Of a DNA stretch of 64,000 nucleotides, positions 47,880 to 54,779 are shown in pieces. The DNA comes from Tepidiformaceae bacterium (GTDB lineage Bacteria > Chloroflexota > Dehalococcoidia > Tepidiformales > Tepidiformaceae). The stretch spans positions 1 to 64,000 of the forward strand of contig OY282446.1 of the NCBI GenBank assembly GCA_958295975.1. The letters are read 5' to 3'. Numbering within the stretch: the first letter of the stretch is position 1; every line of letters starts with the position of its first letter. The position numbers were made by a program, and so were the translations under genes. Below the pieces are notes generated by a model. The model saw only the letters and a program-made list of their open reading frames with translations. It ran no database searches and was not told where the DNA came from.

Positions 47880-49158
47880 CGGCAACGCGGAGCTGCGCGA
47901 GCGGGCGCGCGCCCTCTTCCCCGGCGGCGTCTCCAGCCCCGTGCGATCCTTCCGCGCCGTGGGGGGCGAGCCGGTGCCCGTCGCGCGGGCGTCGGGGGCG
48001 CGCGTGACCGACGCCGACGGGCGCGAGTACGTCGACTACGTGGCCGCCTACGGCCCCCTCATCCTCGGGCACGCCCACCCGGCGGTGACGGCGGCGCTGG
48101 CCGAAGCGGCGGCGCGCGGGACCGCCTTCGGGGCGCTTTCGCCCGACGAGGTGGCGCTGGGGGAACGCATCGCCACGGCCACCGGGCTGGAGCGCCTGCG
48201 CTTCGTGAACTCCGGCACGGAGGCCGCGATGACGGCCCTGCGGCTCGCCCGTGCCGCCACCGGACGCGAGCTCGCGGTGAAGTTCGAGGGCTGCTACCAC
48301 GGGCACGCCGACGGGCTGCTGGTGAAGGCGGGCAGCGGCGTGGCCACGCTCGGCCTGCGCGATTCGGCGGGCGTGACGGCAGGAACCGCCGCCGGAACCG
48401 CCGTGCTCCCCTACAACGACGCGGACGCGCTGGCGGACTGGTTCGCGCGGCGCGGCGCGGACACCGCCGCCGTCATCGTCGAGCCCGTGGCCGGGAACAT
48501 GGGCGTGGTGCCGCCCGGGGCGGATTTCCTCGACGCGCTCAACCGCCTGCCGCGGGAGCACGGGGCGCTGCTCGTGAACGACGAGGTGATCACGGGCTTC
48601 CGCCTGCGCTACGGGCTCAGCGGCTTGCTGCCGGAGGCCGACCTCGTCTGTCTGGGCAAGATCATCGGCGGCGGGCTGCCCGTGGGCGCGCTGGGCGGGC
48701 GCGCGGAGCTGCTGGACCTGCTCGCGCCGGACGGCCCCGTCTACCAGGCGGGCACGCTCAGCGGGAACCCGCTGGCCATGGCGGCGGGGCGGGCCACGCT
48801 CGACGCGCTGCGCGAGGGCGGCGCCCACGCCCGCCTCGAGGAGCTGGCGCGCCACCTGGAGAACGGCCTGCACGCCGCCGCGCGCCGCGCCGGGGCCGCG
48901 GCCTGCGTGGCGCGGCGCGGCGCCATGCTCTCGCTCTTCTTCCGCGCCGCGCCGCCCCGCGACCACGCCGAAGCGCGGGAGTGCGACACGGACGCCTTCG
49001 CGCGCTTCCACGGCGCGATGCTGGCGCGCGGCGTGATGCTCCCGCCGTCGCAGTTCGAGACGTGGTTCGTCTCGACGGCGCACGGCGAGGCCGACGTCGA
49101 CCTGACCGTGCGGGCGGCGCACGAGGCTCTGCGCGAGGCGAGCGGCGGGCCTTCGTGA
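47872..49158 (+). CDS. hemL: Glutamate-1-semialdehyde 2,1-aminomutase
   Basis: A 428-residue PLP enzyme making 5-aminolevulinate from glutamate-1-semialdehyde in the C5 heme pathway. Motifs: LFPGGVSSPVRSF, RFVNSGTEAAM, the LVNDEVITGFR aspartate and PLP-binding Lys263 in LGKIIGGGLPVGA, ending GVMLPPSQFE. GTG start at 47872 inside the end of the DR2241-type gene. The stop overlaps hemC in GTGA. No hemA in the window. Confidence 0.95.
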   Translation: MASGNAELRERARALFPGGVSSPVRSFRAVGGEPVPVARASGARVTDADGREYVDYVAAYGPLILGHAHPAVTAALAEAAARGTAFGALSPDEVALGERIATATGLERLRFVNSGTEAAMTALRLARAATGRELAVKFEGCYHGHADGLLVKAGSGVATLGLRDSAGVTAGTAAGTAVLPYNDADALADWFARRGADTAAVIVEPVAGNMGVVPPGADFLDALNRLPREHGALLVNDEVITGFRLRYGLSGLLPEADLVCLGKIIGGGLPVGALGGRAELLDLLAPDGPVYQAGTLSGNPLAMAAGRATLDALREGGAHARLEELARHLENGLHAAARRAGAAACVARRGAMLSLFFRAAPPRDHAEARECDTDAFARFHGAMLARGVMLPPSQFETWFVSTAHGEADVDLTVRAAHEALREASGGPS

Positions 49159-50054
49159 ACGCCCTCCGGCTGGGCACGCGCGGCAGCCGTCTGGCCCTGC
49201 GCCAGACGGAGATCGCGGCGGCGCGCCTGCGCCACGCCTGGCCGGACCTTGCGCTCGACACGGTCGTCATCGAGACGGCGGGCGACCGCGACCGCGTCAG
49301 CCCGCTGACCTCGGGGGACGGCGCGGGCTGGTTCACCTCGGCCCTGCAGGAGGCGCTGCTGGCGGGCGACATCGACGTCGCCGTGCACAGCTACAAGGAC
49401 CTGCCCACGGCGCGGCCCGACGGGCTGGTCATCGCCGCCGTGCCCGAACGGGCCGACCCGCGCGACGCGCTCGTCTCGCGCGCGGGCGCGTCGCTGGCGG
49501 AGCTGCCCGCGGGGGCGACAGTGGGCACGAGCAGCCCGCGCCGCGCCGCACAGGCGCGCGCCATCCGCCCCGACCTCGCCACGCGGCCCATGCGCGGGAA
49601 CGTGGAGACGCGGCTGGCGAAGGTGGAGGCGGGCGAGTACGACGCGGCCATCCTCGCCCTCGCCGGGCTGGAACGGCTGGGCCTGGGGGGGCGCGCCAGC
49701 CACACGTTCGGGCCGGAGGAGATGCTGCCCGCCCCCGCGCAGGGCGCACTGGCGGCGGAGTGCCGCCGCGACGACGCGGAGACGCGCCGTCTGCTCGCCG
49801 CCATCGACGATCCGGCGGCGCGGAGTCTGGCGGCGGCGGAGCGCGCCTTCCTCGCGGCCCTCGGCGCGGGCTGCGACTTCCCCGCGGCGGCGCTGGCGGA
49901 GGGCTTCGGCACGACGCTGAAGCTGCACGGGCTGATCGCGCCCGACGGCGTCATCGTGCGCTCGAAGGCGGGCGGTCCCGTGGCCACGGGGCCGGGGCTG
50001 GGCCGCGCCCTCGCGCGCGAACTGCTGGACCTCGCCGCGCGCCGCCGCCCCTGA
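49155..50054 (+). CDS. hemC: Porphobilinogen deaminase (hydroxymethylbilane synthase)
   Basis: A 299-residue enzyme that polymerises four porphobilinogens. Motifs: LRLGTRGSRLALRQT start, SYKDLPT with the catalytic Asp region, GTSSPRRAAQ and MRGNVETRLAK. The dipyrromethane cofactor cysteine is Cys240 in LGAGCDFPAA; the surrounding residues differ from the common GGCQVPIG wording but the cysteine is kept. GTG start overlapping hemL. hemB and hemD are not adjacent, as a converging membrane-protein gene follows. Confidence 0.95.
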   Translation: MNALRLGTRGSRLALRQTEIAAARLRHAWPDLALDTVVIETAGDRDRVSPLTSGDGAGWFTSALQEALLAGDIDVAVHSYKDLPTARPDGLVIAAVPERADPRDALVSRAGASLAELPAGATVGTSSPRRAAQARAIRPDLATRPMRGNVETRLAKVEAGEYDAAILALAGLERLGLGGRASHTFGPEEMLPAPAQGALAAECRRDDAETRRLLAAIDDPAARSLAAAERAFLAALGAGCDFPAAALAEGFGTTLKLHGLIAPDGVIVRSKAGGPVATGPGLGRALARELLDLAARRRP

Positions 50055-50066
50055 GCCGTCGCAGCA

Positions 50067-52036
50067 TCACCCGTCGGGGAAGGGGATTTCGACGCTCCAG
50101 AACGCGCCCGTGTTGTTGAACTGGCCGGTGTGAATGCGGTCGATGCCGTAATGCGGAAGTTCAGCCCGCGCGATGCACATCCCACCAAAGTACGCGACCC
50201 TCCGGAAGAGAACAAAATCGAGATTTTCGAAGCCATGCTCCCTCCGTTCGTCGGGCAGAACGTTCGCGTCGGCGGGGAAGATATGCAGGAAGGCGCGACG
50301 CCCCATGTCCGCCCGCTCGCAGGGGGCCTTGACGTACACCAGCGCGCCGTCGATGAGATGGAGGTCGTAGAACGAGCTGGCCGCGGGTTCCCGGCCCGCG
50401 ACCGTTTCGGCGAGCCGCCGCCAAGCGTTCGCCCCGCCGTCGCCAGCCCTGAAGACGACGCCGCGGCGCTGATCCGCCACGGTCTCCAGTTCCGGCAGGC
50501 CGCGCAGGTCGTGCGCGCCGTAGCCGTAGCGGACGCTCACGGCCAGGTCGTGGAACCAGACGACGGAGGTTCCGGGCGGGGCGGCGCGAATGCGGGCGAC
50601 GGCGTCTTCGCGATCGTAGTCCAGCAGCCGGTAGTCCCTTCCGGCGCCGAAGTGCGTCTCCAGCACGCGGGGGCCGTTGGAAAACACCGTCCCGCCCAGC
50701 GGAACGTCGCGGATGGATTGCAGGAAGGCAACGCTCCGCGGCAATTCGCGCGCATCGATGTCGATCGGGTTTTCGCGGCGCAGCTCGCGCGCCCACGGGG
50801 GAACCTGGAGCGCGAGCCAGGCGAAGAGCGCCAGCGCGACCACGGCGGACGCGACCGCCGCGAACCGGAGGCGAACCGGCGGCGGCGCCAGCCCCCGAAC
50901 GAGCGGATCGCAGAGGAGGGCCGCCAGCAGCACGGCGGGGACGTAGAACGGGAAGAAGTAGCGCAGTTGGCCGGAGCCTTCCGACCACGCCCGCCCCGCG
51001 ACGAGGGCCAGCAGGTAGCCCACGCCGAAGAGCGCCGGAAGCAACGCGGTCCTCGCGCGGCCGGTTTCGCCGGAATTCCGGAACGCGTGAACGGCGAGAA
51101 GCGCCAGCAGGAGCGCCAGCAGGAGCGCCAGCGCCCCGATCAGCGCCGAGGCCGCATCCTGGGGAATCGCTCCAGCGGCGCGCCCGGGAACGCCCACCTG
51201 GACAGGACTTCGAGCGTCCGCCCCAGCGTCTCCGGCACGGATACCGCGACGGCCTCGTCGCGGGGGCGGGCGGCGCTCCCGGTGAGCAGGGCCGTCCGCA
51301 GCATCCACAGCGCGAGCGGGGCCGTCGCCATCAGCGCGCATGCGGCGGCGAGCCTCGCGCGCCCGCCGAGGGGGACGCCACCGCGGAGGAATGGCAGCAG
51401 CGCCCCCACGGGGATCAGCGCGACGCCGAGGTAGCGCGTGAGGCAGGCCAGCGCCGTGAACGCCACCGCCCAGAGCAGCGCCGAACGCCTGCCCCCCCCC
51501 CGCAGGAAGGTGTCGGCCTGCACCAGGGCGAGCGTCGCGAACAGGATGAACGGGGCCTCGGAGAGCGCCGCCGAGGCCGCCCGCGAGAGCGGCACGGAGA
51601 GCGCGAGGGCGCAGCAGACCCACGCGACGAGGAGGCGCGACTCAAGGCGGCGCGCCATCCAGCGTCCGGCGACGAAGATGGTCAACCCGAAGGAGATGGC
51701 GCTCAGCGGGCCCGCCACGTCGTACGGATCGGCCACGCCCAGGCCGCCTCCGGCCAGCAGCATCGGATAGAGCGGCGGCCAGATGGCGTACGCGTCCCCC
51801 CCGAACAGGTACCAGGCGGTCTGGGTGAAGCCGTCGCCCGCCAGCAGGGCGCGGGCCACATCGACGTAGTTGACGGAGTCCCAGTGCAGCGCCGGTCCGT
51901 ACGCAGCCATGCGCGCCAGCGCCAGCCCCGCGCCCAGCAGCGCCAGGGCGACGATGAGGAGCGTGAGGCCGTCGGGCCGTGAGCGCGCGATCACGCCCGG
52001 CATCGCTGGACGGCGGGGAATCGGGGGCGGGGACAT
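50067..52036 (-). pseudogene. GT-C-like membrane glycosyltransferase, frameshifted copy
   Basis: A tandem paralog of the intact gene at 52078-53982. The N-terminal part reads from 52036 (MSPPPIPRR; multiple membrane helices, [22 protein letters not shown]) to PLERF near 51165. There the run is GGGG on the plus strand (about 51161-51164) where the paralog has GG. The two extra bases shift the frame and end the protein after PRMRPRR; the correct frame resumes as [15 protein letters not shown] and continues to 50067. Translation of the halves in two frames matches the paralog almost throughout. Either a genuine recent inactivation or an assembly error. Start could also be 52003. Confidence 0.82.
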
Positions 52037-52052
52037 GCTGCGTTCGCGCGCA

Positions 52053-52081
52053 GTAATAGGACCGGCGGCGCGACCCGTCAC
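52053..52081 (-). promoter_or_regulatory. Promoter of the frameshifted membrane-protein gene
   Basis: GTGACG (-35, plus 52076-52081), 17-nt spacer, TATTAC (-10, plus 52053-52058), about 16 nt before the ATG at 52036. The -35 overlaps the end of the upstream paralog. Confidence 0.4.
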
Positions 52082-53982
52082 CCATCGGGGAAGGGGAACT
52101 CGACGCGCCAGAACTCGCCCGTGTTGTTGAACTGGCCGGCGTGGATGCGGTCGATGCCGTAGCGCGGCAGCTCGGCCCGCGCGATGCATGTCCCCTCGAA
52201 GTACGCGCCCGTCCCGTGGAGCGAAAAATCGAGGTTGTCGAAGCCATGCTCCCTCCGCCCGGCGGGCAGGTCGTTCGCATCGGACGGGAACACGTGCAGG
52301 AAGGCGTGATACCCCATATCCGCCCGCTCGCAGGGGGCCTTGACGTACACCAGCGCGCCGTCGATGAGATGGAGATCGTAGAACGAGCTGGCCGCGGGTT
52401 CCCGGCCCGCGACCGTTTCGGCGAGCCGCCGCCAGGCGTTCGCGCCGCCGCCGCCGGCCCTGAAGATGACGCCGTCGGCCCGCTCCGCCACGGTCTCCAG
52501 CCCGGGCAGGCCGCGCAGATCGTGCGCGCCGTAGCCGTAGTGGAGCACCGCCACCAGGTAGTGGAACCAGACGACGGAGGTTCCGGAGGGGGCGGCGCGA
52601 ATGCGGGCGGCGGCGTCCTCGCGGTCGTACTCCAGCAGCCGGTAGTCCCTTCCGGCGCCGAAGTACGTCTCCAGCACGAAGGGGCCGTTGGAAAGCACCA
52701 TCTGGCCCAGTGGAACGTCGCGGATGGATTGCAGGAAGGCGACGCTCCGCAGCGATTCGCGCGCACCGATGTCGATCGGGTTTTCGCGACGCAGCTCGCG
52801 CGCCTGCAGCGGAACGTGGAGCGCGAGCCAGGCGAAGAGCGCCAGCGCGACGGCAGCTGACGCCACCATCGCGAAAGGGGGCCGCATCATCCACGCCCGC
52901 AGCTGGCGGATGGCTGGCTCGCACAGAAGCGCCACCAGAAGGACCAGGGGTACGTAGAGCGGGGCGGTATAGCGCGGCTCCCAGAAAAGCTTCCACGTGG
53001 GGAGGAGCGTCAGCAGGTACGCCGCGAAGAAGAACGCCAGCAGCGGCTCGGCGCGGCGCCCGTTCCGGAATGCGCGAAGGGCGAGGAACGCCAGCAGGAG
53101 CGCCAGCGCCCCGATCAGCGCCGAGGCCCCGTCCTGGAATCGCTCCAGCGGCGCGCCCGGGAGCAACCAGCCGGACAGGACTTCGAGCGTCCGTCCCAGC
53201 GTCTCCGGCACGGAGAGCGACCCTCCGGACCTGGGCCCGGCCGGTTCACCGGTCAACAGGACGTTCCGCAGCAACCACGGCGCCAGCGGGAGCGCCGACA
53301 TCCCCGCGTACGCGATGGCCAGCTTCACGCGCGCTCCGATGGCCCCGCCCCGGAAGAACAGCATCGGCGCCACCGTGAGGATCAGGATGACGCCGATGTA
53401 GCGCGTGAGGCAGGCCAGCGCCGTGAACGCCACCGCCCAGAGCAGCGCCGAACGCTTGCCCTCCCGCAGGAAGGCATCGGCCTGCGCCAGGGCGAGCGTC
53501 GCGAACAGGATGAACGGCGCTTCGGAGAGCGCCGCCGAGGCCACCCACGAGAGCGGCACGGAGAGCGCGAGGGCGCTGCAGACCCACGCGACGAGGATGC
53601 GCGACTCAAGGCGGCGCGCCATCCAGCGTCCGGCGACGAAGATGGTCAGCCCGAAGGAGACGGCGCTCAGCGGGCCCGCCACGTCGTACGGATCGGCCAC
53701 GCCCAGACCGCCTCCGGCCAGCAGCGTCGGATAGAGCGGCGGCCACCAGACGTATGCATCCCCCCCGAAGAACAGGACCCAGGCGGGCTGGGTGAAGCCC
53801 TCGCCCGCCAGCAGGGCGCGGGCCACCTCGATGTAGTTGACGGAGTCCCAGTGCAGCGCCGGTCCGTACGCAGCCATGCGCGCCAGCGCCAGCCCCGCGC
53901 CCAGCAGCGACATGGCGGCGATGAGGAGCGTGAGGCCGTCGGGCCGCCGGAGCGTGAAGCGGTCGCGGATCGGCGCGGCCAT
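52078..53982 (-). CDS. GT-C-like (PMT/ArnT-type) membrane glycosyltransferase
   Basis: A 634-residue polytopic membrane protein. About ten hydrophobic helices span residues 17-400. The first extracytoplasmic loop has [22 protein letters not shown], with Asp46 in the place of the catalytic acid of GT-C enzymes, and LTRYIGV in a later helix is typical of the PMT_2-like group. The C-terminal 220 residues form a soluble outer domain ([36 protein letters not shown]). Probably moves a sugar from a lipid-linked donor to a surface acceptor. ATG at 53982 with TACACT 5 nt upstream. Acceptor and sugar unknown. Confidence 0.72.
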
Positions 53983-54029: not shown

Positions 54030-54779
54030 ATGGGGCCGGTGGCCATCGTCACGGGGGCGGGGTCGGGCATTGGCCGCGCCGTGGCCCTCGCCTTCCTGCG
54101 CGAGGGCTGGTCCGTGGCGCTGGCAGGGCGGCGGGCGCAAACGCTGCGCGCCACCGCGGCCGAGGCGGGCGAGGCCGCCGACCGCGCCCTCGCCGTCACC
54201 GCCGACGTGCGCGAGCCCGCCGCCGTGCGCGACCTCTTCGCCTGGACGGTCGAGCGCTTCGGGCGCGTCGACGCGCTCTTCAACAACGCGGGCACGGGCG
54301 CGCCCGCGCGTCCGCTGGAGGAGCTGAGCCTGGAGCAGTGGCGGGCGGTGGTGGACACGAACCTGACGGGGGCCTTCCTGTGCACGCAGGAGGCGTTCCG
54401 CGCGATGAAGGCACAGACGCCGCGCGGCGGGCGCATCATCAACAACGGCTCCATCTCGGCGACCACGCCGCGCCCCGACTCCGCGCCCTACACCGCCGCC
54501 AAGCACGCCATCACGGGGCTGACGAAGGCGACGGCGCTGGACGGGCGCGCCCACGACATCGCCTGCGGCCAGATCGACATCGGCAACGCGCTCACGCCCA
54601 TGACGGAGCGCATGGCGGAGGGCATGCCGCAGGCGGACGGGGCCGTGCGCCCCGAGCCCGTGATGGATGTGGAGCACGTGGCCCGCGCGGTCCTCTACAT
54701 GGCCAGCCTGCCGCTCGACGCGAACGTGCTCAGTCTCACCGTAATGGCCACGAAGATGCCCTTCGTGGGCCGCGGCTGA
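54030..54779 (+). CDS. Short-chain dehydrogenase/reductase
   Basis: A 249-residue classical SDR. Cofactor motif TGAGSGIG at residues 8-15, NNAG near 88-91, catalytic Ser in NGSISATTP and the YTAAK Tyr/Lys pair near 150-154. The Arg at the end of the second strand (AGRRAQ) favours NADPH. C-terminus keeps [13 protein letters not shown]. Substrate unknown. It is the only gene on the plus strand between two minus-strand runs. Confidence 0.9.

Follow-up and report, generated by a model that had tools for sequence, protein, structure and literature searches.

Two adjacent genes, here called A and B, lie on the minus strand in the first 64,000 nucleotides of contig OY282446.1 (the window) from a Tepidiformaceae bacterium in the Chloroflexota (assembly GCA_958295975.1). 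Gene A is intact and gene B is split by a frameshift, and both end in a C-terminal module that is far more unusual than the frameshift and that a first-pass annotation of the locus had passed over. On balance, we favor the interpretation that A and B are a tandem pair of GT-C-type membrane glycosyltransferases that have exchanged sequence by gene conversion, that B is a young pseudogene, and that the module is a spreading domain that would bind a glycan or a matrix.

The gene pair and its C-terminal module

The features discussed in the text are as follows.

52078..53982, minus strand: gene A, intact, GT-C-fold membrane glycosyltransferase-like, with the C-terminal module; a single open frame of 634 amino acids
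52774..53940, minus strand: predicted GT-C membrane region of A, residues 15-403, from the structural alignment with Pmt4
52081..52434, minus strand: C-terminal module of A, residues ~517-634, with a short helix, a linker and a beta-sandwich containing Cys551 and Cys599, from the structure model and the alignment
52319..52434, minus strand: near-identical tract in A, at the junction of the GT-C part and the module
50067..52036, minus strand: gene B, the tandem paralog of A, interrupted by a frameshift, from the alignment to A
51140..52036, minus strand: N-terminal frame of B, 298 amino acids, with a short out-of-frame tail at its end
50067..51161, minus strand: C-terminal frame of B, 364 amino acids, module included
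51161..51164, minus strand: frame-breaking site in B, GGGG on the plus strand (GG in A), at about residue 283 of A
about 50070-50423, minus strand: module of B (module match at 50085-50369)
50308..50423, minus strand: near-identical tract, the copy in B
53833..53909 (A) and 51866-51942 (B), minus strand: longest exact block shared by A and B, 77 bases
51492..51501, no strand assigned: run of ten C in B, the sole G/C run of at least 9 in the window
49158..50054, plus strand: hemC, porphobilinogen deaminase, flanking gene, a neighbor conserved in congeners
54030..54779, plus strand: short-chain dehydrogenase, flanking gene, a neighbor conserved in congeners

The module comprises the last ~115 residues of both proteins and contains two invariant cysteines (Cys551 and Cys599 in the numbering of A), each of which is present in 54 of 54 aligned copies and which could form a disulfide bond. 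It is modeled as a mostly-beta domain, a beta-sandwich, with a mean pLDDT (predicted local distance difference test) of 84.9. No family was recovered from Pfam, searched first with 18 and then with 54 members, or from NCBIfam, searched with 54 members, apart from stray matches, and no credible relative was found among the sequences of the PDB. The best structural neighbor reached a Z-score of 7.1, and the neighbors, including fibronectin type III (FnIII), CBM56, CrdA and others, were all weak. The FnIII/Ig-like and CBM56 beta-sandwich domains are similar to the module in their modeled arrangement and are among its top structural neighbors, but they differ from it in that the Z-scores are 7.1 or less, that Foldseek gave no match to the module at E ≤0.001, that no sequence family is matched by the module, and in its two invariant cysteines.

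The proposal that A and B are tandem GT-C-like paralogs has stood up: the genes are adjacent on the minus strand, and the identity of A as a GT-C glycosyltransferase holds by the predicted fold. In the model of A (mean pLDDT 67.9), residues 15..403 were superimposed on Pmt4 with a Z-score of 23.3 and a root-mean-square deviation of 4.0 over 346 aligned residues, and ArnT gave a Z-score of 22.4. The 50 structural rows listed consisted of GT-C enzymes, oligosaccharyltransferase (OST) or glycosylphosphatidylinositol (GPI)-transamidase entries, plus two translocon entries, and Foldseek returned 15 matches at E ≤0.001, with ArnT first. Even with E-values up to 1 allowed, A matched no Pfam family; the N-terminal part of B scored 15.1 bits against PMT (PF02366), below the gathering cut-off of 22.7, and the best NCBIfam match of A, to the LA_3751/LA_3752 putative glycosyltransferases, was far below the cut-off (34 bits versus 200). 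In GT-C enzymes, a catalytic acidic residue is expected in the first extracytoplasmic loop. Residue D46 of A, within HWDSVNY, is kept in B and lies outside the invariant and near-invariant columns of alignment A4.

The resemblance to the GT-C glycosyltransferases (Pmt4, ArnT, PglB/OST and AftB; Z 18-23) concerns the membrane region of A, whereas the end module is uncovered, the listed rows reaching residue 511 of A at most. Two other paralogs in the window's genome, at 1223686-1225251 (L007) and 2138303-2139820 (L008), match A only to residue 509 and are apparently natural versions without the module. Yet another paralog in this genome, at 931923-933518 (L006), matches only to residue 533, contains one TGA inside the aligned frame and is possibly another broken copy.

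Spread of the module among genomes and carriers

The window's genome contains 40 copies of the module, with one to four per protein, and none was found in 59 other relatives, including all eight congeners. Module-bearing membrane proteins are clustered in this genome at 366-385 kb, 595-608 kb, 777-795 kb and 922-935 kb (L021-L024), where each protein has one to four modules, and the frame at 371764-372387 is little more than two modules. A scan of contigs from 84,980 species yielded 322 confirmed module stretches, the best 80 of which form 76 loci in 25 metagenome-assembled genomes (MAGs), hereafter the set: 23 within the accession range OY282352-OY282565, plus CATQHB and CATQHF. The MAGs are annotated as Dehalococcoidia, Caldilineaceae, other Chloroflexota, Latescibacteria, Entotheonella, Gammaproteobacteria (including Pseudomonadales), Bryobacterales, Nitrospirales and Binatia, which corresponds to about seven phyla by our own placing of these lineages. 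In total, they contain 804 copies, 17-64 each; that 25 of 25 are positive is by construction, the genomes having been chosen for their match.

The module was recovered from 7 of 400 Chloroflexota genomes (the window's genome included), from 2 of 64 Latescibacterota, both set members, and from 4 of 247 Acidobacteriota, only one of them a set member. Of the other three Acidobacteriota, one has two copies, the better of which matches at E 4.6e-24, and the remaining two have a single weak match apiece (1.6e-5 and 2.5e-5). Likewise, both of the positive genomes among 341 in the order of the Pseudomonadales record are set members, as is the single positive genome in the phylum of the Binatia record (1/118), of the Entotheonella record (1/5) and of the Nitrospirales record (1/198). 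Summed over the groups around these eight set genomes, 11 of 973 genomes match and 8 of the 11 are set members; outside the set there are 3 in 965, so that 962 of the 965 non-set genomes sampled gave no match. Two provisos apply. In the searches of the Chloroflexota, the Acidobacteriota, the order of the Pseudomonadales record and the phylum of the Nitrospirales record, and to some extent in the phylum of the Binatia record, part of the first-look candidates was scored and weak matches can be missed. Moreover, repeated genes may drop out of short-read MAGs, and the difference between carriers and non-carriers could then look sharper than it is.

The 25 MAGs and the window's genome are probably of sponge origin. 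OY282360, which is inside the accession range, is given as "Sponge metagenome" (unpublished) in the relevant passage of PMC12239599, and the mix of lineages suits such an origin (compare the abstract of PMC12648040). The accessions of the set were not found in the available passages of PMC12648040, PMC12398682 and PMC12181767. Furthermore, we found no paper that names the 25 MAGs as a set or that describes the module, which as far as our literature searches showed is undescribed in print. A mobile-element origin of the module was also considered and set aside, as searches of viral contigs, of plasmids (one query sequence) and of phages (one query sequence) gave no relative.

Carriers of at least 250 amino acids, to which the clustering was confined, fall into 14 clusters, eight of which span more than one phylum by our own phylum placing. 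Among ten carriers searched against Pfam, five have a glucose/sorbosone dehydrogenase domain followed by cytochrome c, these five having been picked for few membrane spans, one resembles SGNH/GDSL proteins and the other four matched no family. None of five further proteins from loci of the set (the 372-amino-acid tail of a frame in L113, plus carriers from clusters 0, 1, 6 and 7) gave a family, and the Pfam-negative carriers are therefore named membrane or GT-C-like by look only. Some carriers have at most one predicted membrane span and others are polytopic, and two to four tandem modules are often present. The module is usually located at the extreme C-terminus, most often followed by 2-6 residues, with exceptions such as a 2,788-residue open frame (L064:7028-15391), in which a single module is placed well before the end. 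In L070, L099, L115 and L135, unrelated carriers have a similar short stretch (like ALTARYQN..GT) at their N-terminal end or ahead of it, which could be a common leader or a DNA repeat lying upstream.

Several comparisons support the suggestion that carrier genes have crossed phyla. One Latescibacteria chromosome and one Pseudomonadales chromosome have 4,300 bases in common at 88.8% DNA identity. A single Chloroflexota clade was rejected for carrier cluster 3 in an approximately unbiased (AU) test (p 6.4e-60, with two very distant rows included) and marginally rejected for cluster 5 (AU p 0.044). Phylum labels were hardly clustered on the tree of cluster 3 (8 changes; 40 of 200 shuffles gave as few, with a mean of 9.1) and were clustered on that of cluster 5 (3 changes; 8 of 200 shuffles gave as few, with a mean of 4.5). 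L113:5299-6411 in the Gammaproteobacteria record and L071:8535-9653 in the Entotheonella record are 91.6% identical in DNA; this segment has no Pfam match and is fused behind the module in L113.

The modules themselves appear to have been copied onto unrelated genes within genomes, besides moving with whole genes, as suggested by the pattern of closest modules among 163 terminal modules whose carriers belong to clusters of at least three members. For 81 of these, the closest other module was on a related carrier in the same genome, and for 30 on an unrelated carrier in the same genome, a category that makes up 3.3% of all pairs; in 27 cases it was on a related carrier in another genome and in 25 elsewhere. 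In a head-to-head comparison, unrelated carriers in the same genome won 77 times and related carriers in other genomes 74 times, with 6 ties and 6 not comparable, and module pairs on unrelated carriers in the same genome were up to 92.8% identical. A module tree (FastTree, 259 rows, 38 phylum changes) was not used as evidence, being made of short rows and having no shuffles.

Probable gene conversion and the break in gene B

Among nine genomes of the genus, only the window's genome has A and B between hemC and the short-chain dehydrogenase. A tblastn search with A gave no match in this gap in 8 of 8 congeners, where it is ~1.28-1.30 kb in seven and 0.18 kb in one; a thiolase was identified by Pfam in both of two such gaps (L166 and L170). 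Furthermore, no other genome among forty, the window's genome included, has a match to A at E 1e-50. The pair is thus a new arrival at this site, absent there from the eight sampled congeners.

The first-pass annotation had suggested gene conversion from almost identical parts of the 3' halves (about 50310-50430 and 52320-52440) next to parts that have diverged, and had called for a check of patchy nucleotide identity. The similarity is real: there is one mismatch in the 116 bases of 52319-52434 in A and 50308-50423 in B (exact blocks of 59 and 56). Synonymous divergence (dS), which overall is 0.209 against a nonsynonymous divergence (dN) of 0.159 over 633 codon pairs, is 0.37, 0.07, 0.38, 0.11, 0.60, 0.13 and 0.28 in successive blocks, the limits of which were drawn by eye after the alignment was seen. 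The shuffle test used fixed 30-codon windows: the four-fold sites of codons agreeing in the first two bases (293 of 333 identical) are distributed so unevenly across these windows that none of 10,000 shuffles reached the same level. The longest identical four-fold run (43 sites) was reached in 1,025 of 10,000 shuffles and is not significant, so only the windowed heterogeneity is significant. Since the longest exact block sits in the 5' part of the genes, the patchiness extends over the whole gene. These patterns support gene conversion between A and B.

The alignment also confirmed that A is intact and that B is split by a two-base difference, with CCCC on the coding strand of B versus CC in A. 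The N-terminal part of B is 79% identical to residues 12-283 of A and the C-terminal part, in a different frame, 75% identical to residues 283-634, such that both frames still align with the intact protein, as had been noted. This is the sole frame-breaking indel in ~1.9 kb of alignment, once adjacent small gaps are summed (by inspection), and it falls inside the membrane region, since the GT-C match of A spans residues 15-403. The dN/dS ratio is 0.375 in the module and 0.62 and 0.85 in two blocks between residue 290 and the module. Because there is no second frame-breaking change and the module has such a low ratio, the lesion must be young, and B can best be read as a pseudogene that a two-base indel created not long ago. 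Of the three origins that had been offered, decay is the likeliest, in the form of a young lesion, and phase-like variation is unsupported.

Some results weigh against this interpretation of B. The dN/dS ratio is 1.26 for residues 16-215, which relaxed or diversifying selection explains as well as decay does. At positions where five paralogs of the same genome share a residue, A alone keeps it in 9 cases and B alone in 8; this near-equal tally does not indicate a long decay, and the idea of B as a long-decayed gene was dropped. The indel may also be an assembly error, in which case B would be an intact second enzyme. We consider this unlikely, but it is the most serious of the alternatives for the frameshift: there is a single frame-breaking difference in the entire gene, the module is under constraint, and the near-identical stretches of A and B could mislead consensus calling. 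On the other hand, the difference sits in a run of only four bases, and broken copies seem to be usual in the family. Of 188 module open reading frames (ORFs) examined after removal of repeated ORFs from overlapping loci (167 from the loci of the set and 21 from the window's genome), 19 are cut by the end of the locus, and 16 of the 169 uncut ones have at most 250 residues before the module. Carrier-like sequence is present upstream of 13 of these 16, in some cases perhaps merely an adjacent gene; B itself counts as long here because its alternative frame stays open.

It is very improbable that B is a phase-variable gene switched by slippage. The C10 tract speaks for it, but this tract is in frame as it stands, has no counterpart at the matching place in A, and does not exceed chance (one run of at least 10 versus a shuffle mean of 0.5, range 0-3), and a homopolymer signal in the window was accordingly rejected; the lesion, with its run of only four bases, is not a hypermutable tract. 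G/C runs of at least 6 are about half as common in the window as in dinucleotide shuffles (30 versus a mean of 67.6). Least probable of all, with hardly any chance, is a programmed ribosomal frameshift that fuses both parts of B into one product. As such a mechanism would allow, the C-terminal frame (50067-51623) stays open far beyond the lesion on its upstream side, but by inspection TTC CCC AGG on the coding strand re-pairs poorly for a backward shift by one, and there is no such site in A and hence nothing conserved.

A possible role for the module

We hypothesize that A and B are tandem duplicates of a GT-C-type membrane glycosyltransferase, new at this site, which from the modeled fold would transfer a sugar from a polyprenyl-phosphate donor onto an extracytoplasmic acceptor. 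The two genes have probably exchanged sequence by gene conversion, after which B would have been broken in its membrane region. Both carry at their C-terminus the accessory module, modeled as a beta-sandwich, with its two conserved cysteines. Sequence patterns support the movement of carrier genes between phyla of probable sponge symbionts, and the copying of the module within genomes to extracytoplasmic proteins that are not related. What the carriers share seems to be that they work outside the cytoplasm and at least partly on glycans. The most likely role of the module would be to bind a common extracellular glycan or matrix, which would direct different glycan-building enzymes to one surface polymer or keep them there; this is the weakest step in the proposal. 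The tandem module copies suit avidity and would fit with binding.

Alternatively, the module could be a tag for sorting or surface anchoring rather than a binding domain, to which we give perhaps one chance in a few. A tag would be expected to sit where the module usually does, at the extreme C-terminus with a few residues behind it, and to occur both on polytopic carriers and on those with at most one predicted span, as the module does. However, polytopic membrane enzymes would presumably need none, and the frequent runs of two to four tandem copies fit better with binding. Several observations also count against the binding and sponge-community parts of our proposal. The structural matches are weak, so the fold does not show a binding role. 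The database-wide statements about module loci rest on the best 80 of 322 stretches, and two Chloroflexota genera and one Acidobacteriota genome outside the set also have the module. Other numbers of the accession range are insect chromosomes from the Sanger Institute, according to PMC11126900 and PMC11513577, so the range reflects the run of a submitter and not one sample, and the sponge link of the set comes from one other accession number in it, OY282360.

A further and more tentative idea, which we would at present rather doubt than accept, is that the module is private to one sponge community, in which it has reached at least seven phyla by transfer and has been amplified on glycan-building enzymes, such that unrelated symbionts would produce, retain or recognize a single common matrix or a coat that faces the host. 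Sponge symbionts are known to transfer genes to one another, including those of attachment proteins with cadherin and fibronectin III domains, as described in passages of PMC8163846. The similarity to our findings lies in the transfers between sponge symbionts. The term "glycosyltransferase" does not occur in the main text of that study and no such module is described in its passages on transfer, whereas in the present case amplification has given dozens of copies of one module per genome, on proteins of several types.

The frameshift and the copying between A and B are ordinary events that matter little on their own, and the module is the less ordinary part of the locus. If the module is indeed private to one community, the A/B pair, with its near-identical tract at the junction, would represent a snapshot of module shuffling. 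An undescribed domain that is found across phyla and is scarce in their relatives would provide a molecular handle on what a sponge community shares, and would open to experiment the long-standing problem of how a single host retains, or recognizes, unrelated symbionts.

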